From: Alicyclobacillus herbarius DSM 13609
Lineage (GTDB): Bacteria > Bacillota > Bacilli > Alicyclobacillales > Alicyclobacillaceae
Assembly: GCF_000430585.1 (NCBI RefSeq)
Contig: NZ_AUMH01000006.1
Coordinates: forward strand, 1-64,000
DNA length: 64,000 bases
Reading direction: 5' to 3'
A program made the translations under genes and the position numbers. Below the pieces are notes generated by a model. The model worked only from the letters and a program-made list of their open reading frames with translations, was not told the DNA's origin and ran no database searches. Of the stretch, positions 83 to 9,427 are shown one piece after another (position 1 is the first letter of the stretch; every line of letters begins with the position of its first letter).

Positions 83-1882
83 TCAGACACGGCTCAGAAG
101 CGCGGCTGGCTTACCAAGTACCTCCTTTGATTTCACGTCTATCACCCCGAGCGGTGTCAAACGCAAGCCGGGCAGAAAATCACAGGCTAGAAATAAAAAC
201 GAATACAGGATGTCATGAAACGCGTACCCACGCGCCCGTACGGCCGTGGCCAGTTGATTGTAGTAGGTAACCGCCTGAGCAAACGAGGGACTGGTCGTCA
301 TCATTCCGGTAAACGGCAGCGGGATTTCCACAACTGCCTTGCCCTGTTCCACAAGCACCACTCCGCCGCCCAATACTCGAACTCGCTGAGCCGCCTGCGC
401 CATGGCCTGAGGATTACGACCAATTACTAGCAAGTCGGTCGTGGTGTTATACGTGGAAGCCAACCCCTCGACACCCGGCATGAAGTCGTCCAGGATGGCG
501 TGTACAATCCACTCCCCATGGCGGTGAATCAAAGTGGCGTAGGATAAATTCGGGTGCTTGTCGATTACCGCGTAGCCGTTTGTCACAGGGAGCGTATAGT
601 CTTTCCGCTCAGTGATTGCAGCCAGACGAAAGCGGATTGCGGGCACGGTCACTTCGGACGCTCCTGCAGAAGCCGGGTAGCGAAACAAATCTGGTGTAAA
701 GTCAATGCCCAAGGAAGTCTCCGCCAGCGGTCTCTTTGTCAGATAGGAACTCCACTCAGGATTCGGCAGCGGACGGGTCAAGCGGCCTCCTCGTGCAGCT
801 ACCTCTCCCCCCGTCACGACCAGATCAGGAACGAAGTGCTCCAGGTCTGGTAAAAGCAACAAGTCTGCACGGCGCCCGGGCGCAATGCCACCAATAAAAT
901 CGTCCAGGCCAAGGTAAGTGGCCGCGTTTAGGGTTACCATTTGTATCGCCGTCATCGGGCTTACTCCGGCCATTACCGCCTTACGCAAAAGCCCATCGAT
1001 AAACCCTTCCGTATCAATAAAGCCGGGATTGGGGCCATCGACAGTCATCATAACGCGCCGGGTATCGATTCCATGCTCCGTAACAGCCCGAATCACCTCA
1101 TCCATGTCCGGCCGCAGGGAACTGTTTCGCAAAACCGTCCACAAGCCCAGTCGCAAACGATCCAAAACTTCCTGCGCCGTGATGGCCTCGTGGCATGCAC
1201 TTATGCCCGCCGCCGCGATAGCATTCAGGCGCTCATAGGAACACCCGGACGTATGACCATCCGAAACTTTACCGCGTCGCTTCGCTTCTTCAATGACTTC
1301 TAAGACGCGTGAATCGGCATCATAGATAATTGGCCAACGCGTAACCTCGGCGGTTCCAATCACATCCCACATATCAAGGAGGACGCGCAGCTTATCAGGA
1401 TGAAAATCCTCGTACTCGCCCGGATAGGCAGCTTGCGATACGATTCGCGCCAGCCATAAATGCAAACCGGGTAAAACACGCAGGTCTTTGACCATGCGCG
1501 CGAATCCTTCCACGCCCATATGCATGAAGAAAAAAAGGTCATCATGGGCAAACGTGGTCGTGCCCAGGGGCAGGACCTTCTCCGTCAAACTCACCGGGTT
1601 GTACAAGACCCACGGGTGGGAGTGGGTCTCAATCCAACCGGGGGAAATATAGCATCCATCCGCATCCAGAACCTCTGTGCGCTCACCAATACAGTCCTCG
1701 CGTTGGCCCACGTACGCAATGCGGTCCTTATACACAGCGACGTTGGTATTCAAAATTTCCCCAGAATATACGTTCAAAACGCGGCCGTCGCGAATATATA
1801 AATCTGCCTTTCGCTTACCTTTCGACACTTCAATCAATTCTTCTCGAGTCGCCGCGAAGGGAAGCCAATTCCGTCGTCCCAC
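83..1882 (-). CDS. yerA: YerA-like adenine deaminase family amidohydrolase
   Basis: Probable metal-dependent deaminase of purine salvage (adenine to hypoxanthine), cytosolic; activity is inferred from the family. The 599-residue protein has the amidohydrolase metal motif as THSHPW near residues 86-91 and a C-terminal domain typical of adenine deaminases. The variant motif ETHSHP and the following GTTTF segment resemble B. subtilis YerA more than classical Ade, which usually reads THVHIES. The start is a GTG at 1882 with a GGGAGG ribosome site 8 nt upstream. It follows the acyl-CoA ligase by 18 bp, so it may be co-transcribed with the aromatic cluster. In B. subtilis yerA lies just past purD, which fits the purine operon further up this strand. 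Confidence 0.85.
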   Translation of the reverse strand: MGRRNWLPFAATREELIEVSKGKRKADLYIRDGRVLNVYSGEILNTNVAVYKDRIAYVGQREDCIGERTEVLDADGCYISPGWIETHSHPWVLYNPVSLTEKVLPLGTTTFAHDDLFFFMHMGVEGFARMVKDLRVLPGLHLWLARIVSQAAYPGEYEDFHPDKLRVLLDMWDVIGTAEVTRWPIIYDADSRVLEVIEEAKRRGKVSDGHTSGCSYERLNAIAAAGISACHEAITAQEVLDRLRLGLWTVLRNSSLRPDMDEVIRAVTEHGIDTRRVMMTVDGPNPGFIDTEGFIDGLLRKAVMAGVSPMTAIQMVTLNAATYLGLDDFIGGIAPGRRADLLLLPDLEHFVPDLVVTGGEVAARGGRLTRPLPNPEWSSYLTKRPLAETSLGIDFTPDLFRYPASAGASEVTVPAIRFRLAAITERKDYTLPVTNGYAVIDKHPNLSYATLIHRHGEWIVHAILDDFMPGVEGLASTYNTTTDLLVIGRNPQAMAQAAQRVRVLGGGVVLVEQGKAVVEIPLPFTGMMTTSPSFAQAVTYYNQLATAVRARGYAFHDILYSFLFLACDFLPGLRLTPLGVIDVKSKEVLGKPAALLSRV

Positions 1883-1900: not shown

Positions 1901-3532
1901 TTAATTGACGGTCGGTGAGTAACTGCGTTCTCGAAGCTTGAATCGCTGGATTTTCCCAGTCGCGGTCTTTGGCAGGTCATCCATGAAGATGAACCGTTTT
2001 GGACATTTAAAGTGAGCTAAACGGGCTCGAACGTACGCACGCAACTCTGCTTCCATTTCTTCTACAGAGTCTGGCTCGAAACGCAGTACCACGTAAGCGA
2101 CCGGTTTTTGAATCCCATTTTCATCTTTTTCCCCTACGACCGCGGCTTCCAATACCGCCTCATGGTCCAAAATGACACTTTCCACTTCAATGGGTGAGAC
2201 CCAAATTCCGCCCGACTTCAACATGTCATCTTCACGGCCACAATAGAAGAAGAACCCATCTTCATCCTGGTAGTACCGATCGCCCGTGCAGTACCATTCG
2301 CCGTTAAATCTGGATTTGGACTGCACATGCAGGTTCCAGTAGCCTTGCGCTAAGCAATCTCCCTTCAGGAGCAGCTGCCCCGGTTCGTTGGCAGCCACTG
2401 TTTCTCCATACTCATTCACGATTTTCACGTCAAACCCCGGCACCACTTTACCCGTGCTTCCAGGACGGATATCTCCAGGACGGTTGGACAGGTAGATATG
2501 CAAGGCTTCTGTCGAGCCTATGCCATCCAGGATATCTACGCCAAACCTCTCCCGAAACCGCCGATAAATGGCCGCAGGTAGTGGCTCTCCAGCCGAAACG
2601 CATAACCGTACGGATGAAAAGTCGGGATTCTTGCCCGTCTTGTCCATCCAATCTAACATGGCAGCATATAAGGTTGGAACACCAAAGAACAGCGTCGGCC
2701 TATATCTTTCCACCGTATCGCAGACGTTCTCGGGAGAAACCCGTCGACGCCGAAGGACCGTAGAACCCCCGGTGCCTAAGGCAAAGTACATACCATTCCC
2801 CATGCCATAGGCAAAGAACAACTTGGAGGCGGAAAATGTTCGGTCGTGTTCATTGATGTTTAGCACGCTCCGCGCATAGTTGTGAAAAGCCACCTCCATA
2901 TCGTGCTGCAGATGAACAACGCCTTTAGGTTTACCGGTGCTTCCAGATGTATATAACCAGAAGGCCGTATCGTCATAGATGGTGGCTACAGGTTCCAATT
3001 CGCATGGTTGCGCTTTCATTATTTCATAAAAGTTTCCGATGCGGATGCCCGCATTTTCCATACTGTCAACTGCTGCAAGTTCGCCTTCGCGTTCCAAGTA
3101 CAGCACGTGTTTCAGGTAGGGCAACGCCGCACGCTGCCTTGCAATCTGACGCCATAATTGAGCTTCAATAATCAGCACCTGAGCGCGGCTGTCGTTTAAT
3201 ACATAGATATAGTCGGCCGGACTCCACATCGTATTCAGTGGCACAGGCACTGCTCCAATTTTGATGGCCCCAAAGAAACTAGCAACAAATTCGACCGAAT
3301 CTTCACATACCAGCGCAATCCGGTTCTCGACCTGTACCCCTAACGCACGCAAACCGTTGCCGACCCGATTCACCCATTGGTACAACTGTTCATAAGTAGT
3401 CTCCCCATCATCGTGGTAGATGGCGACTTTGTTGCCCAGTCCGAGTTCCATGTTCCTATCGATGAATCGAACCGTCGCATTGTAACGACTGCGCGGAAGC
3501 AGCTGCGGTTCATCAGGCACGTTGATGGACAT
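1901..3532 (-). CDS. Benzoate-CoA-ligase-like acyl-CoA synthetase
   Basis: AMP-forming enzyme that should activate an aromatic or other carboxylate to its CoA thioester. The ANL-family P-loop YTSGSTGKPKG lies near residue 195, the acid/adenylate motif GSTEALH near 330, YCTGDR near 400, and the catalytic-lysine motif PKTATGK near the C-terminus. The segments LFFAYGMGNG and IGSTEALHIYLSN are typical of the benzoate-CoA ligase subgroup rather than PaaK. I chose the ATG at 3532, preceded by GGGGAGTGAGGGAAGG, over an upstream in-frame start at 3631; this gives 543 residues. It lies downstream of the enoyl-CoA hydratase in the same direction. Substrate is inferred only. Confidence 0.85.
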   Translation of the reverse strand: MSINVPDEPQLLPRSRYNATVRFIDRNMELGLGNKVAIYHDDGETTYEQLYQWVNRVGNGLRALGVQVENRIALVCEDSVEFVASFFGAIKIGAVPVPLNTMWSPADYIYVLNDSRAQVLIIEAQLWRQIARQRAALPYLKHVLYLEREGELAAVDSMENAGIRIGNFYEIMKAQPCELEPVATIYDDTAFWLYTSGSTGKPKGVVHLQHDMEVAFHNYARSVLNINEHDRTFSASKLFFAYGMGNGMYFALGTGGSTVLRRRRVSPENVCDTVERYRPTLFFGVPTLYAAMLDWMDKTGKNPDFSSVRLCVSAGEPLPAAIYRRFRERFGVDILDGIGSTEALHIYLSNRPGDIRPGSTGKVVPGFDVKIVNEYGETVAANEPGQLLLKGDCLAQGYWNLHVQSKSRFNGEWYCTGDRYYQDEDGFFFYCGREDDMLKSGGIWVSPIEVESVILDHEAVLEAAVVGEKDENGIQKPVAYVVLRFEPDSVEEMEAELRAYVRARLAHFKCPKRFIFMDDLPKTATGKIQRFKLRERSYSPTVN

Positions 3533-3639
3533 CCTTCCCTCACTCCCCTTTGGTGGGCATGACTCCGGATATGTCCCACCCAAAAACAGGCGGGACTCTC
3601 GCACTGTCACCGTTATGTCCCGCCTGTACATCGAATCGA

Positions 3640-4416
3640 TTAAACTCCCTGGAACGAGGGCTGCCGTTTCTCCAGGAACGCAGATAACCCTTCTTTTGCG
3701 TCCTGAGAACGGAACAACAGGTTTTGCAGCTCACCTTCATAACGAATGGCCACGTTCAGCGGCATCTCTTTGCCGTTCATGATGGACAATTTGATGTTGG
3801 AAACCGCGTAGGTGGCACCACTCGCCAGCTTCTGTGCGTACGCAAACGTCTGCTCGCGAATTTCCTCAGCCGGGAATACCTTGTCCACCAAACCGTAGTC
3901 AAGTGCTTCTTTTGGCTTCAAGGTACGTCCAGTGATGCAAAGGTCCAGCGCCTTCGATGGGCCAATTAAACGCGCCATACGCTGCGTACCACCGGTTCCT
4001 GGCAACACGCCCAAGGTAACTTCCGGCAAACCAATCTGGTAGTCCCCGTCCGCAGCAAACCGCAAGTCGCAGGCCATCGCCATCTCAAGTCCGCCACCAA
4101 CCGTGTGGCCTTCCAGCATGGCGATGTAAACCTGAGGAGAACGAGCGATTTTGTCCAGCGTCTCATTACAGAAGAGACAAAACTGCGTTTTAAACCGCGG
4201 ATCTGCACTGCGCAGGAAGTCAATGTTGGCACCGACGGAGAAAAACTTGGGGACATCGCTCATTAATACGACCGCGTGGATATCGTGATTGATACGAATC
4301 TCGTCAATGGCCGCGTTCAACTCACGATAGACATCAAAGTCGTACGAATTCCCTTTCCCAGCATGTAGATGAATTTCTGCCACACCGTCACCAGTGTTAA
4401 CCGTCACGTATTGCAT
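3640..4416 (-). CDS. Enoyl-CoA hydratase/isomerase (crotonase family)
   Basis: Crotonase-fold enzyme expected to hydrate or isomerise an enoyl-CoA in the degradation of the aryl-CoA made by neighbouring genes. Both glutamates of classical hydratases can be seen, in GGGLEMA (about residue 111) and GLPEVTLGVLPGTGG (about 131). The length of 258 residues is normal for the family (PaaF/PaaG size) and far shorter than BoxC. The second ATG (4416) is preferred because AGGAG sits 9 nt before it and only 1 nt before the first ATG (4425). It could act as PaaF, PaaG or a general beta-oxidation enzyme; sequence alone does not decide. Confidence 0.87.
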   Translation of the reverse strand: MQYVTVNTGDGVAEIHLHAGKGNSYDFDVYRELNAAIDEIRINHDIHAVVLMSDVPKFFSVGANIDFLRSADPRFKTQFCLFCNETLDKIARSPQVYIAMLEGHTVGGGLEMAMACDLRFAADGDYQIGLPEVTLGVLPGTGGTQRMARLIGPSKALDLCITGRTLKPKEALDYGLVDKVFPAEEIREQTFAYAQKLASGATYAVSNIKLSIMNGKEMPLNVAIRYEGELQNLLFRSQDAKEGLSAFLEKRQPSFQGV

Positions 4417-4594
4417 TCCTATCATCTCCTGTACGATTTATATTATCCATAGATTGGATTTCTATGGAATGCGTAATACAGTCGCTGGACGCAGCAGACG
4501 CTACAATCCGTGTTCGTCACGATATGGGTCTGACGAGGCGCCACCTAGGCAGCCAACCCGAGCACCACCTCCCTTTCCGCGAAGGGAAATGCAC

Positions 4595-6100
4595 TCACCT
4601 CACGCCGAGCGGATTCAACGGTTGGGTGCCGATGTAGGAGACCACACTCTTGGTCTCTGTGTACAAGTTCAGCGTTTCCACCGCCAATTCACGGCCAAAA
4701 CCAGATTGTTTGAAACCTCCAAAGGCTACTCCTGGGAAAGCGGAAATCGGCGAGTTCACCATGACTATCCCCGACCGAATCCGACTGGCAACGCGATGCG
4801 CACGTGCGTGATTGGTCGTCCAAACGGCACCAGCCAATCCATACATGCTGTCGTTGGCCAGTTGAATCGCTTCCTCCTCGCTGGAGAACTTCATCACGAC
4901 CACAACAGGCCCGAAAATTTCCTCCTGAGCCACGCGCATCTCGTTCCTAACACCTTCAATAACAGTCGGCAGATACCAGTATCCGTTTTCATACGCGGTG
5001 CCTTCAGGCCGTCTTCCACCATAGGTGACCTTGGCTCCTTCTTGCTCCGCCAGCCGGACATATCCGTCGATCACTTCAAGCTGCGACTCGGAGATGATAG
5101 CTCCCATGTGCACCGCCGGATCAAACGGGTCTCCGACCTGAATTCGTTTCACCTTATCCAAGAACCGCGACATAAACTCTTCATAAACGTCTTCGTGGAC
5201 GAACAGACGCGACCTCGCTTCACAGGACTGACCCGAGTTATAGAAAATGCCATGTAGCGATCCGTCGACTGCAGCGTCCAGGTCCGCATCCGAAAAGATA
5301 AGATTGGCGGATTTCCCTCCAAGTTCCAAGGACACACGTTTGACGGTGCCAGCGGCCATGCTCATAATCCCACGGCCGGTTTCCGTGTCCCCGGTAAAGG
5401 CGACCTTATCGATGCCAGGGTGCTCACACATGTAGGCACCGACCTCCGCCCCACTTCCAGTGATGACGTTAACCACTCCGTCCGGTACTCCCGCTTCCTT
5501 GCAGATGCGAGCCAGTTCCAAAGCGGTCAGCGGCGTGTAACTGGCTGGCTTAAGAATCACGGTGCAGCCTGCCGCTAAGGCGGGGGCCAATTTCCACGCT
5601 GCCATCATCAGCGGGTAGTTCCACGGGATGATCTGCGCACAGACCCCTACCGGCTCCCGCAGGGTGTAAGTGAAAAACCCATTGGGCATGGGAACCGTTT
5701 GCCCCGCCAGCGTGACCGAAGCCGAAGCGTAAAACTCGAAATCCTCAATCGCCTGAAGAATTTGCCCCTTCGCCGTGTTGACGGTTTTGCCTGTATTGAG
5801 CACTTCCAGCTCGACCAAATCATTGAGCCTTTCCCTCATCAGGCGCGCCACTTCATTCAAGACGCGAGCCCGTTTGGCCACCGTAAAGCGGGACCAATTT
5901 CCATCTTCAAAGGCTTGACGAGCGGCCTGAACAGCCTTGTCCACATCGGCCTTGGTGGCCTTGGCTACCTTCGCAATCGGCTGCCCCGTGGCTGGGTTAT
6001 AGACCTCAAAGTACCTTTCCTGGTCGGCCGGTACAAACTCTCCGCCGATGAACAGCCCGTACACCTTGTCTTCGACCTGTGTTACTACCCGTTCCGTCAC
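4595..6100 (-). CDS. NAD(P)-dependent aldehyde dehydrogenase
   Basis: Oxidises an aldehyde to a carboxylate in the cytosol. The general-base glutamate is in LELGGKSANL (about residue 264) and the catalytic cysteine in SGQSCEARS (about 298). The length of 501 residues fits a single-domain ALDH, so it is not PaaZ, which is fused to a MaoC hydratase. The start is a GTG at 6100 with GGAGGTG 5 nt upstream. It lies 26 bp downstream of paaX. In context it could oxidise a semialdehyde released after ring cleavage, or arylacetaldehyde upstream of the pathway; both are inference. It is followed by about 180 bp without a gene before the hydratase. Confidence 0.88.
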   Translation of the reverse strand: MTERVVTQVEDKVYGLFIGGEFVPADQERYFEVYNPATGQPIAKVAKATKADVDKAVQAARQAFEDGNWSRFTVAKRARVLNEVARLMRERLNDLVELEVLNTGKTVNTAKGQILQAIEDFEFYASASVTLAGQTVPMPNGFFTYTLREPVGVCAQIIPWNYPLMMAAWKLAPALAAGCTVILKPASYTPLTALELARICKEAGVPDGVVNVITGSGAEVGAYMCEHPGIDKVAFTGDTETGRGIMSMAAGTVKRVSLELGGKSANLIFSDADLDAAVDGSLHGIFYNSGQSCEARSRLFVHEDVYEEFMSRFLDKVKRIQVGDPFDPAVHMGAIISESQLEVIDGYVRLAEQEGAKVTYGGRRPEGTAYENGYWYLPTVIEGVRNEMRVAQEEIFGPVVVVMKFSSEEEAIQLANDSMYGLAGAVWTTNHARAHRVASRIRSGIVMVNSPISAFPGVAFGGFKQSGFGRELAVETLNLYTETKSVVSYIGTQPLNPLGVR

Positions 6101-6126: not shown

Positions 6127-6954
6127 CTACGCCTCGTCCAATATCTCCAGATGTTGATAGAAATACTTTTCCGCCAAAGGTGACAACAGTTGGTGGTACT
6201 CACGGAACAACTTCCGAGCCTGATCGCCAATCCACTGGTCGGGTAGCAGCTCCTTTGGTAGACGCGGATCGACAAAAAGAAACTTGCGGTATTCGTGCAC
6301 GAGCAACGTTCGTTCGACAAACGCCTGCTCTTCTGTCAACTGTCCCAGGACGTAGAGTTGGTGCGCCTTCTGATACTTGGTGCCGAACTCGTTGATAAAC
6401 CCTTCATACTTCCTTTGAATTTCTTCTAAGTTCCAGGCAGCGGAAACCAGGTCCAGAACCGACAGCATCCCTTCGTACGTCCCAGTAAAGACGTGAACAT
6501 CGGCGGCAATCTGATACTCCTCAATCATCGGCTTCAATGAGGCAAAGCGCTGATGCGGACTAATCCAAGTCGTGCGGTTTATCTGACCAAACCCCATCCA
6601 CTGCAGCTCGCGCCGAAACCGTTCCCGACGGTCCTTTTGGATGCTTGTCAAGTCGCAACAGACGATTTGCCACTGTCGGTCCCAGGTTGAAACGACGTCC
6701 CAATCGTAGACCCGCATGACTCCATCAATAATCCGCCGCTTGCCTTCACTCGATAAGGCGTAGTAACTTTTTTGACCCACTCGACGCGAGTGCAACCACC
6801 CCTGCTGCATCATACGGGAAAAGGTGACCCGTGCCGCGTTTTCGGTAATGCCGAGCGCCCCGAGGTATTTGATCAGGCTGCCCACCCATACCTCCACGTT
6901 CAAGTCACGAAAGTAATCGCCAAATAGCGTGAAGCTTAAGGAAGCCGGCCGCAT
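6127..6954 (-). CDS. paaX: PaaX-family transcriptional repressor
   Basis: GntR-like winged-helix repressor that in known systems binds phenylacetyl-CoA and releases paa promoters. The N-terminal helix-turn-helix region includes LGITENAARVTFSRM; the PaaX middle and C-terminal domains follow, for 275 residues in all. I chose the ATG at 6954 with GAGGGG 7 nt upstream rather than the first possible start at 6984. It lies within the cluster between the oxygenase genes and the aldehyde dehydrogenase, so it probably regulates the whole operon including itself. The inducer here might be benzoyl-CoA or phenylacetyl-CoA; this is not resolved by sequence. Confidence 0.88.
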   Translation of the reverse strand: MRPASLSFTLFGDYFRDLNVEVWVGSLIKYLGALGITENAARVTFSRMMQQGWLHSRRVGQKSYYALSSEGKRRIIDGVMRVYDWDVVSTWDRQWQIVCCDLTSIQKDRRERFRRELQWMGFGQINRTTWISPHQRFASLKPMIEEYQIAADVHVFTGTYEGMLSVLDLVSAAWNLEEIQRKYEGFINEFGTKYQKAHQLYVLGQLTEEQAFVERTLLVHEYRKFLFVDPRLPKELLPDQWIGDQARKLFREYHQLLSPLAEKYFYQHLEILDEA

Positions 6955-7076
6955 ACGCAATCCCCTCAATCCACATGGCTGCATATGATGTCCTCATACT
7001 AGCATCTCAAGGCAACTGGACCAATTGGCATGGATGTGGGACTGCGAGAATCAGTCGCTAGCGGCCCGGCTGGTTG

Positions 7077-7256
7077 TTACCAGCGGACCCGTTCAAACAC
7101 GCTCCGACAGGTGTTGCAGTAGTACTGTCGCACCAGCTGCGCTCGCCCTACCGGTGATTGGATCCGTACGTCCTTCGATCCGCAAAACGGACAGACGGCC
7201 GGTCCGTCCTTGCGCGAATTGGGGTCTATACCTGTTCCGCCACCGGAGTTACGCAT
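7077..7256 (-). CDS. Stand-alone PaaD zinc-ribbon domain (split PaaD C-terminus)
   Basis: A 59-residue protein with two cysteine pairs, CPFCGSKD and YCNTC, in the arrangement seen at the C-terminal end of full-length PaaD. The N-terminal MIP18/DUF59 part of PaaD is a separate gene two positions upstream (8054-8365), so PaaD appears to be encoded in two pieces flanking paaB and paaC. The start ATG at 7256 lies inside the end of paaC (31-nt overlap) and has AAGGAG 11 nt upstream, which suggests translational coupling. The probable role is help in iron-sulfur or diiron maturation of the oxygenase, by analogy. The longer reading frame up to 7427 is out of frame with paaC and unlikely. Confidence 0.72.
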   Translation of the reverse strand: MRNSGGGTGIDPNSRKDGPAVCPFCGSKDVRIQSPVGRAQLVRQYYCNTCRSVFERVRW

Positions 7257-7828
7257 AGGAGATCCATCTCCTTCTGACACGCGCTGGCCAGTTCGAGCGA
7301 CGAGCCACCGAATCCACGCTGATCGACCCCTGCGAGCCAATCCAAAGCCTCTTGACCCTGCCTTTGTACGGACTCCCGAAACAACCGCGGAATGGCTCCC
7401 GTCTCCAGCGCAAAACGCTTGCACCATTCACTTGCAAAGGTGATGTGTTCCTCCACCTCGCGCAGCATCTTTCCCGTCTTCGCCAACACTTCCGGGACAT
7501 CGCGATCCCGCAGCGCTTGGAGGATCAGCCGGGCTGTGGTGTTTACCATGAAGACAGATACCATCAAATCAATCCAATTACGGTTCTCGCGCATCGCTTG
7601 CAAACCCGTTGTGGCTTCCTGAGGAATTTCAACCTCCTGGTTGGATAGAGAAGCCGACCAATTGTACAAGTGCCGCGCGTGCCCCAGTTCAGCCTGCGCC
7701 ATGGCGACCGCGGACAGGGCTGAGGTGAGTTCGGGAGCGCTGACCCCTTCCTCGACCAACTGATCCCCAAGCGAAATCTTTGAGTCTGCGAGAAACTGTA
7801 GGACCTCAATCAAGACGGTCTTATCCAT
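7226..7828 (-). CDS. paaC: PaaC-like oxygenase structural subunit
   Basis: Ferritin-like subunit of the ring-1,2-epoxidase complex that partners PaaA. At 200 residues it is clearly shorter than E. coli PaaC (about 248), and the C-terminal part is missing. It retains one ExxH motif (AELGHARH, about residue 47); the second site reads VEEH instead of ExxH, so a catalytic diiron centre is unlikely, as in known PaaC. The start ATG at 7828 follows the paaB stop by 1 bp. The zinc-ribbon ORF starts inside its 3' end. Assignment rests on fold motifs and on the A-D-B-C neighbourhood. Confidence 0.8.
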   Translation of the reverse strand: MDKTVLIEVLQFLADSKISLGDQLVEEGVSAPELTSALSAVAMAQAELGHARHLYNWSASLSNQEVEIPQEATTGLQAMRENRNWIDLMVSVFMVNTTARLILQALRDRDVPEVLAKTGKMLREVEEHITFASEWCKRFALETGAIPRLFRESVQRQGQEALDWLAGVDQRGFGGSSLELASACQKEMDLLCVTPVAEQV

Positions 7829-7829
7829 T

Positions 7830-8057
7830 TCACGCCCCCTCCACCGCGGGTACGTCATCTCGCCCGTTGCGGGTCACCCAACGAATGTTCTCGGCACGCA
7901 CTACTGCAAAGTCGAACCAGTTTTCTTCGTCATAAATGTGGCTCGCCAAAATCTGCGCTAGATTGTCGGAAAACGCCTCCACGACTCCGATGTGATAGAA
8001 TGGCTCGCCTCGACGCCCGCGCGCAAACACTTCGTAACGCTTCAGATTCGTACTCAT
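7830..8057 (-). CDS. paaB: PaaB-like oxygenase small subunit
   Basis: Small subunit (75 residues) that in known systems bridges PaaAC units of the phenylacetyl-CoA epoxidase. The core KRYEVFARGRRGEPFYHIG is characteristic, and the tail contains DFAVVRAENIRWV. The start is the ATG at 8057, which overlaps the TGA of the upstream paaD-like gene as ATGA, indicating translational coupling; an upstream in-frame start at 8075 is less likely. The stop at 7830 is 1 bp from the paaC start. Length is typical for PaaB. Confidence 0.85.
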   Translation of the reverse strand: MSTNLKRYEVFARGRRGEPFYHIGVVEAFSDNLAQILASHIYDEENWFDFAVVRAENIRWVTRNGRDDVPAVEGA

Positions 8058-8365
8058 CGACTGGATACCCCCCACTGGGCCAGCATGGACCTCCCTTTAC
8101 TCGTCAGGCGTTGCACGGTCCATGGCGGATCCCAAACGACGTTAATGTCCACCCGCTTCGCTCCAGCCGCAAGAATGGCATTGCAAATGTCTTCTTCTAT
8201 CCACTGCATACAAGCGCATCCAACCGACGTGTAGGTCATGGTCACGGTGACGGAGCCATCCGCTGCTTCTGTGATGTCATAAATGAGTCCCATGTCCACC
8301 ACCGAAATCGGAAACTCAGGGTCAATCACCTGGTCCAAGGCTGTCCAGTACGGCTCCACTGCCAT
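8054..8365 (-). CDS. paaD: PaaD N-terminal half (MIP18/DUF59 domain)
   Basis: A 103-residue MIP18-family protein, thought to help load metal into the oxygenase. The family motifs DPEFPISVVDMGLIYDI (about residues 15-31) and the cysteine-containing TSVGCACMQW (about 46-55) are present. Full-length PaaD is about 165 residues and carries a zinc ribbon at its end; here the protein stops after the DUF59 domain and the ribbon is encoded separately at 7077-7256. The start ATG at 8365 has AAGGTGA 6 nt upstream. It lies 38 bp after paaA and overlaps paaB by 4 bp. Confidence 0.83.
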   Translation of the reverse strand: MAVEPYWTALDQVIDPEFPISVVDMGLIYDITEAADGSVTVTMTYTSVGCACMQWIEEDICNAILAAGAKRVDINVVWDPPWTVQRLTSKGRSMLAQWGVSSR

Positions 8366-8403: not shown

Positions 8404-9348
8404 TTACGACGTCTTGCGGAGTTCTTGATAGTCGTGATATCCTTTTTGCAAACGTTTGACGAATTCTTGGTTCCGTGGTCCCCGCGCCTTGAAGCGACGA
8501 ATCACATTTTCCCACGTGTCAGGCTGGTCCAACAGCCACTCCCGTTTCTCGACATCGAACTTACAAGGGAAGGGAATGTCCAGGACATACCGATTCGTTT
8601 CGTCGTCATAATGCGCAGGAACCGCTATACCAATCGATTCGAAGAAAGGAACCACTTTCGAAAGCCACGTCTGCCGCAGCTCGTCATTGGTCTTACCCTT
8701 GAGACGATAGTCAAGCTGCCGCGTACGGGACTTCACCTCATCGGCCACGCCGAAAAACTCGAGTCCCATGATGAACATCCTGAGCAGCGCGCGCTCCAGT
8801 TGTTTCTTTTGCACCTCGTTTTTGACGGCCTCGCGCAGAATCGATTCTCCGTTGCGCAAGTGAAACAATTCTTCCTTATCGACTTTTACGAGGGCACGCC
8901 GCCACGGTCCATACGAAGTGTTCTGGCCAATGTCGGACAACAATGTATATCCGGCGCGGTCATACAGTGCGTTGAACAGGCCGATTTCCACAAAGTTGTC
9001 CAGGTCAAAGTCGAAGGCATACGGGTTCTTCCACTTCTCCGGCGGGCGCTCATATAACAGCGTTTCCAGGTCCATACCAAGTTCGCGTAATAGAATGTAG
9101 GCAATGTGGGCGTGACCCAGTTCATCCTGCATAATGGCCAAGATGGTGATTTTGCGATTCAGTGTAGGCGCTTGCTTATACGCCGTCAGCAACGCCGGAA
9201 CACTCATCAACTCCGTGTCCCCTGTAATCGTAAGCGTTTGCACCAACGCCTGTCGGTACTCCTCTGTCATGTCCTCCGGAGTTTCGACAATAAAACCCCG
9301 CTGAATCTTTTCTGCCAAAGGGTCCACAGCAAGGGTGCTCGTTGCCAC
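8404..9348 (-). CDS. paaA: PaaA-like diiron oxygenase catalytic subunit
   Basis: Probable catalytic subunit of an aryl-CoA ring epoxidase (phenylacetyl-CoA 1,2-epoxidase type). Two ExxH diiron motifs are visible, DELGHAHIAY (about residue 85) and KEELFHLRNGE (about 167). The protein is 314 residues, the usual PaaA size. The start GTG at 9348 has GAGGTGA 5 nt upstream; the first possible start, 9357, overlaps this ribosome site. It is the first gene of the operon, just below a strong sigma-A-type promoter. No PaaE-type reductase gene is in the window, so electrons must come from elsewhere. Since the linked ligase resembles benzoate-CoA ligase, the substrate may not be phenylacetyl-CoA. Confidence 0.86.
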   Translation of the reverse strand: MATSTLAVDPLAEKIQRGFIVETPEDMTEEYRQALVQTLTITGDTELMSVPALLTAYKQAPTLNRKITILAIMQDELGHAHIAYILLRELGMDLETLLYERPPEKWKNPYAFDFDLDNFVEIGLFNALYDRAGYTLLSDIGQNTSYGPWRRALVKVDKEELFHLRNGESILREAVKNEVQKKQLERALLRMFIMGLEFFGVADEVKSRTRQLDYRLKGKTNDELRQTWLSKVVPFFESIGIAVPAHYDDETNRYVLDIPFPCKFDVEKREWLLDQPDTWENVIRRFKARGPRNQEFVKRLQKGYHDYQELRKTS

Positions 9349-9427
9349 GAATCTCACCTCACTTGTATGGTGTCTCGATGTCCCGCCTTATCGTATTACG
9401 TTTTTTATTCTGTTTTATTTTATCTGT

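Follow-up and report, generated by a model that had tools for sequence, protein, structure and literature searches.

Gene content of the locus

The stretch analysed (hereafter, the window) comprises 64,000 nucleotides, positions 1-64,000 of contig NZ_AUMH01000006.1 from Alicyclobacillus herbarius DSM 13609 (GCF_000430585.1). It carries a minus-strand operon that begins with a paaA-like gene for a catalytic diiron subunit (8404..9357; PF05138, 191 bits, diiron-site columns conserved), followed by a stand-alone DUF59 half of PaaD of 103 residues, hereafter D (8054..8365; PF01883, 52.2 bits against a cut-off of 23.5), a short paaB-like bridging subunit (7830..8057; TIGR02157, 33.7 bits, below the cut-off of 85.45), a short paaC-like structural subunit (7226..7828; PF05138, 50.8 bits; TIGR02158, 40.4 bits, below the cut-off of 133.35), and a stand-alone PaaD-type zinc ribbon of 59 residues (7077..7256). 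The open reading frames and their Pfam matches bear out what the sequence-only reading had proposed, namely the order A-D-B-C-ribbon with the two halves of PaaD encoded by distinct genes that flank paaB and paaC.

The same strand also encodes a PaaX-like repressor (6127..6984; PF07848, PF20803, and PF08223 all above cut-off; TIGR02277, 239 bits, below 264.55), an aldehyde dehydrogenase (4595..6100; PF00171, 612 bits), an enoyl-CoA hydratase family protein (3640..4425; best NCBIfam match 191 bits, below its cut-off), and a benzoate-CoA ligase family protein (1901..3631; TIGR02262, 585.9 bits, above the cut-off of 375.25). An adenine-deaminase-like amidohydrolase (83..1882; TIGR01178, 236.5 bits, below 472.5) is found again in many related Bacilli clusters. 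No reductase gene is present among the 11 window genes scanned with Pfam and NCBIfam profiles.

The NCBIfam models that A, B, and C match best describe subunits of phenylacetyl-CoA epoxidase, though all three proteins fall well short of the equivalog cut-offs: PaaA reaches 136.3 bits against 280 (TIGR02156), and the PaaB and PaaC scores are those given above. Such distances suggest a divergent second system. The operon probably encodes not the phenylacetate enzyme, but an epoxidase of a separate clade.

The two small genes as the domains of PaaD

PaaD of E. coli K-12 is a single chain of 165 residues, in line with the earlier statement that PaaD is normally one chain. For haloarchaea, NCBIfam models already cover a split form: PaaD (NF041868) and PaaE (NF041869) are likewise a DUF59 protein and a ribbon of about 56 residues, encoded by two genes in one operon. 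Split PaaD itself is consequently not new, being curated in haloarchaea. The window proteins score below the cut-offs of these models (D, 86.1 bits against 180; ribbon, 32.7 against 100) as well as below that of the PaaD equivalog TIGR02159 (D, 68.7; ribbon, 26.4; cut-off 108.15).

Aligned with fused PaaD (seven proteins), D extends up to the interdomain linker, and the part past the linker corresponds to the ribbon, which identifies the two genes with the two domains of PaaD. Both domains are homologous to those of the TIGR02159 family, and in both cases the operon includes homologues of PaaA, PaaB, and PaaC; the difference lies in one gene there against two here. D genes of the A-D-B-C-ribbon clade (hereafter, the split clade) uniformly stop 18-20 residues past a PPW-like motif (34/34), as opposed to 67-82 residues in the measurable fused rows. 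A broken fused PaaD as the source of the pieces was rejected, given a break at the linker, a uniform D length, and a split state common to several phyla.

The ribbon gene starts with ATG 31 nt within the paaC-like gene and has an AAGGAG 11 nt upstream; the sequence-only reading had noted this AAGGAG and the start inside paaC. Searched against the PaaD zinc-ribbon family, as that reading had suggested, the 59-residue product matches Zn_ribbon_PaaD (PF23451) with 43.4 bits, above the cut-off of 27. It carries four zinc-type cysteines (CPFC...CNTC, i.e., CxxC...CxxC), which are retained in all 12 aligned rows; phenylacetate-type ribbons have a fifth cysteine, which the ribbon here lacks. Among six close pairs, five gave dN of 0.09-0.34 and dS of 0.67-1.76, that is, dN/dS of about 0.11-0.19; in the sixth, dS was saturated. 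Presence in all 25 clade genomes (see below) and low dN/dS excluded a chance open reading frame.

The structure model of the ribbon comprises three strands (mean pLDDT 75, pTM 0.54; 75-95 per ten-residue block from residue 21 onwards). Its structural matches are weak (E >= 0.05 across the 50 listed) and include zinc ribbons of NrdR and of the VdcCD decarboxylase (small chain/VdcD region); none of these 50 matches is described as a rubredoxin. No solved structure of PaaD was found, stand-alone DUF59 chains being the only matches.

The matches of the ribbon bear on the possibility that it plays no part in maturation and instead carries electrons or is built into the epoxidase as a structural subunit, having a rubredoxin-like Cys4 site and taking the place of the reductase. 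The lack of a reductase among the 11 scanned genes would fit this role, as would the name of the haloarchaeal ribbon in NCBIfam, which is that of the reductase (PaaE). Nevertheless, in phenylacetate operons that have a reductase too (paaD and paaE of E. coli), such a ribbon and the DUF59 domain form one covalent chain, the listed structural matches include zinc ribbons and no described rubredoxin, and most haloarchaeal loci of the clade have a better carrier nearby in the form of a 2Fe-2S ferredoxin (11/12 annotated loci, see below). A carrier or structural role of the ribbon is thus rather unlikely.

Conservation in Bacilli

The arrangement A-D-B-C-ribbon was seen in four relatives from the class of the window organism that encode the same PaaA clade. 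A set of 25 loci was assembled from the window, two relatives, and 22 loci with clade PaaA from a contig scan, all 22 from Bacilli; two of the scanned loci match, by contig, two of the four relatives. The order A-D-B-C occurs in 25/25 loci counted, and the ribbon was detected in 25/25 Bacilli genomes carrying this PaaA clade (E <= 8.5e-17). Its placement varies: directly after paaC in ten genomes, upstream on the same contig in another ten, and on another draft contig in five. The complete order A-D-B-C-ribbon is thus found in 10/25 Bacilli genomes, the ribbon lying elsewhere in the other 15, while the view of the ribbon as a conserved gene that overlaps paaC in the window is well founded.

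Among 121 relatives, clade PaaA was found in five (E <= 6.9e-116), and a strong ribbon match in those same five. The other 30 ribbon matches, spread over 28 further genomes plus second matches in two of the five, are weaker (E >= 1.2e-8) and lie within open frames of at least 158 codons, as expected for full-length PaaD. In a survey of 398 genomes of the phylum, in which one search scored at most 16 candidates per genome and was hence less sensitive, the ribbon was found at E 1e-8 solely in the own genome, and canonical PaaA in ten others.

Genomes with and without a fused PaaD

A full-length PaaD is encoded in the same genome on another contig (178.5 bits, cut-off 108.15), together with a second PaaA/PaaC pair. 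The sequence-only reading had regarded a full-length PaaD elsewhere, combined with poor conservation of the small ORF, as evidence against a two-part PaaD; the former exists, whereas the ORF is conserved in 25/25 genomes. Across the clade, full-length PaaD above cut-off is present in 20/25 genomes, which would be expected if the small genes were decaying remnants and the fused PaaD of the other operon did the work. In five genomes (Domibacillus antri, D. epiphyticus, Paenibacillus validus, Aeribacillus composti, and Brevibacillus fulvus; completeness not given), however, full-length PaaD above cut-off is absent, and each of them has exactly two matches to the PaaA_PaaC family, one PaaA and one PaaC, both of the split clade. 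There, D and the ribbon are the sole PaaD-like pair found. With neither fused PaaD nor another PaaA or PaaC in these 5/25 genomes, D and the ribbon are probably sufficient by themselves. The low dN/dS of the ribbon in five of six pairs and its retention across Bacteria and Archaea likewise argue against decay, a reading that is largely refuted and highly improbable. Genomes with separate halves and no fused copy found open the role of each half of PaaD to direct test.

Plasmid and haloarchaeal loci

The clade extends beyond Bacilli. A tblastn search of plasmids with window PaaA, for which 60 of 200 records were listed, returned at least 24 clade-like records among the matches listed (7 Thermus, 13 haloarchaea, and 4 Agrobacterium; 37-50% identity), the remaining listed matches having at most 31.5% identity. 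Sixteen of the 24 loci were read (two from Thermus, all 13 from haloarchaea, and one from Agrobacterium), and all 16 show the order A, D, B, C with the ribbon right after paaC; the annotated Thermus locus L083 has one extra small gene between B and C. At the site of the ribbon, the annotation gives no gene in nine loci and a hypothetical protein in six, and one record is unannotated, the PLSDB gene tables being incomplete. A Microbacterium plasmid locus (L090) contains a Suf-type DUF59 gene and was left out of all counts. Viral contigs queried with PaaA encoded no relative.

A second split type, with the order A-B-C-D-ribbon, was found in 6/6 haloarchaeal loci read that have a phenylacetate-type PaaA. 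These loci, to which the PaaD/PaaE models belong, differ from the window not only in gene order, but also in a PaaA with E49 and K68 and a ribbon with five cysteines; in two of them (L165 and L166), PaaK is in view. The ribbon is called PaaE in 2/6 (L084, 8319-8486; L166, 5294-5461). In E. coli, PaaE denotes the reductase, and such a label invites wrong pathway calls.

In 11/12 annotated haloarchaeal loci of the clade (e.g., L082, 5907-6688; L175 is the exception), genes for a 2Fe-2S ferredoxin and a GNAT acetyltransferase lie adjacent to each other near paaA. It is possible that this ferredoxin serves as the electron donor of the epoxidase.

Phylogeny and the origin of fused PaaD

An earlier, quick PaaA tree was followed by a careful one of 42 chosen rows, midpoint-rooted and with phyla sampled unevenly. 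In the latter, the A-D-B-C-ribbon loci form one clade (100/100), deep sister of the phenylacetyl-CoA epoxidases, and the longest branch of the tree separates the two sides. On the other side, a single clade unites the rows with fused PaaD (95/93), the haloarchaeal A-B-C-D-ribbon loci having diverged earlier in two steps (98/92 and 97/88). The fused label was checked: full-length PaaD above cut-off is present in 33/33 genomes searched behind fused rows of both PaaA trees, and for the rows of the careful tree that were not read directly, it lies on the PaaA contig within about 3 kb in 8/9. In row L160, the full-length PaaD adjoins other PaaA copies of the genome; in row L152, the PaaD match falls within one long frame of 318 codons.

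A tree of the D domain, rooted on two DUF59 paralogues and based on few columns, also groups the fused proteins into one clade (SH-aLRT 95); the haloarchaeal D of the split clade does not group with D of Bacilli and Thermus. The spacing between the DPE and LG motifs is four residues in 40/40 split D and in both DUF59 paralogues. Among the 26 fused rows, it is five residues in 23 as counted by script and in two more by eye. As two rows (L058 and L125) represent one gene, 24 of 25 distinct fused PaaD carry this one-residue insertion, which split D lacks. The row with a spacing of four, L141 (from a Paenibacillus naphthalenovorans genome), has a very long branch.

Taken together, the trees and the insertion suggest that a single fusion of such a D and ribbon pair probably gave rise to fused PaaD. 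The simplest reading of the branching order would be that the split state came first, the A-B-C-D-ribbon arrangement followed, and a single fusion occurred late. Two-part PaaD is the hallmark of a branch of ring-opening enzymes that is old and has hardly been described.

Active site and probable substrate

Solved PaaABC (PDB ID: 3PVR and 3PW1) shares with the window both its A-B-C make-up and the diiron-site columns, E42, E72, H75, D126, E155, and H158 (E. coli numbering), which are identical in 42/42 rows and presumably include the iron ligands. It differs in its position across the longest branch of the tree, in gene order (A-D-B-C in the window clade), and in residues around the site. E49 and K68, which form an active-site network in E. 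coli PaaA, are present in 22/22 phenylacetate-type rows and in 0/20 split-clade rows. In turn, the split clade has D40, R127, and G129 in 20/20 rows and T41 in 19/20, as opposed to S41, G127, and A129 in 22/22 phenylacetate-type rows.

The residues of the split clade resemble those of BoxB, the benzoyl-CoA epoxidase family (TIGR03225; PDB ID: 3PER and 3Q1G). In a HMMER alignment, BoxB of the PDB shows GDTE and DRDG at the diiron site, corresponding to the GDTE and DRxG of split-clade PaaA, and, read by eye, neither E49 nor K68. Window PaaA itself scores below the cut-off of the BoxB model (17.1 bits, cut-off 499.1), and BoxB is one chain of about 480 residues, unlike the multi-subunit A-B-C of the window; as also described in a review, BoxB is not known to require B, C, D, or the ribbon. 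BoxB was found in 0/25 clade genomes, in a search that had no control genome scoring above the BoxB cut-off.

The neighbouring genes point in the same direction. The benzoate-CoA-ligase-like and aldehyde dehydrogenase genes near the window operon recall the Box route. A CoA ligase with at least 48% identity to that of the window is encoded in 19/25 Bacilli loci, the window counted. The six loci without such a match comprise four on contigs of 4.9-10.4 kb and two on longer ones (L068 and L077), which have full flanks and no benzoate-CoA-ligase-like gene nearby. Besides the window ligase, 5/5 further Bacilli ligases scanned exceed the TIGR02262 cut-off, and this is the best-matching model for three ligases of haloarchaeal clade loci as well (370.3, 389.7, and 372.0 bits, one of the three passing 375.25); the family also includes ligases for other substrates. 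The BoxB-like residues, a benzoate-family ligase, and the absence of a detected BoxB together point to benzoyl-CoA, and the split clade probably acts on benzoate rather than phenylacetate.

Alternatively, the operon could encode a variant of phenylacetyl-CoA epoxidase with the same two-part PaaD, i.e., a second isofunctional paa copy in the genome. The adjoining PaaX-like repressor is consistent with it, and so are PaaA as the nearest solved relative of window A and the best NCBIfam matches of the three subunits. On the other hand, A, B, and C each fall well short of their equivalog cut-offs, another contig of the same genome carries the second PaaA/PaaC pair together with the full-length PaaD, the split-clade rows have BoxB-like residues and lack E49 and K68 (20/20), and the window ligase belongs to the benzoate family, that of a phenylacetate-type haloarchaeal locus being PaaK. 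An isofunctional copy therefore appears doubtful, about as doubtful as the carrier role of the ribbon.

Proposed function of the operon

The reading we favour, and consider somewhat more probable than all others combined, is that the operon encodes a diiron epoxidase of PaaABC type from a clade distinct from phenylacetyl-CoA epoxidase, likeliest acting on benzoyl-CoA, with a two-chain maturation factor made of D and the ribbon. The CoA ligase would make benzoyl-CoA, the putative substrate judging from active-site residues and gene neighbourhood; A would epoxidise the ring, with B and C as a scaffold; and ring opening and oxidation of the aldehyde would fall to the hydratase and aldehyde dehydrogenase, following the Box route. 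D, a SufT-like DUF59 protein, and the zinc ribbon would act in trans as two halves of the maturation factor, associating, probably transiently, at the A/C complex, where they might help to load the diiron site of A or else protect it.

The latter steps are modelled on PaaD. According to reviews (among PMC13186573, PMC9493321, PMC4498308, PMC9416434, and PMC6449761), PaaD is needed in vivo, has no effect in vitro, and resembles SufT, while two reviews of this group list its function as unknown. It is this combination of need in vivo and dispensability in vitro that suggests a role in maturation; by extension, D and the ribbon may mature or protect the diiron site. Contact between the two chains, and hence a D-ribbon complex, is predicted by analogy with fused PaaD.

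In broader terms, the chances are about even that the clade constitutes a further aerobic benzoyl-CoA epoxidase of PaaABC type, whose active site resembles that of BoxB and whose maturation factor has two chains, distributed over Bacillota, Deinococcota, Pseudomonadota, and haloarchaea, in which the split is ancestral and from which PaaD arose by one fusion; this could explain aerobic benzoyl-CoA metabolism in bacilli that lack BoxB. The route of Zaar et al. reportedly runs via benzoyl-CoA, yet neither the Geobacillus nor the Parageobacillus genomes searched yielded a BoxB, and the split clade is a candidate for the missing enzyme. Among the open-licence papers listed, no biochemical data or assay on the split PaaA clade were found, nor anything on a split PaaD or a PaaABC-type benzoyl-CoA epoxidase, which does not imply absence from print.

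Two loci show further variation. Genome G081 (L058) has, in addition to the split-D operon, a second paaA-paaB-paaC set that adjoins the canonical one. In Domibacillus antri (L114, minus-strand frame 616-1710), the ribbon reads without a stop into a 3-hydroxyacyl-CoA dehydrogenase, so named by eye (365 codons from stop to stop); the frame is either a true fusion or a draft error.
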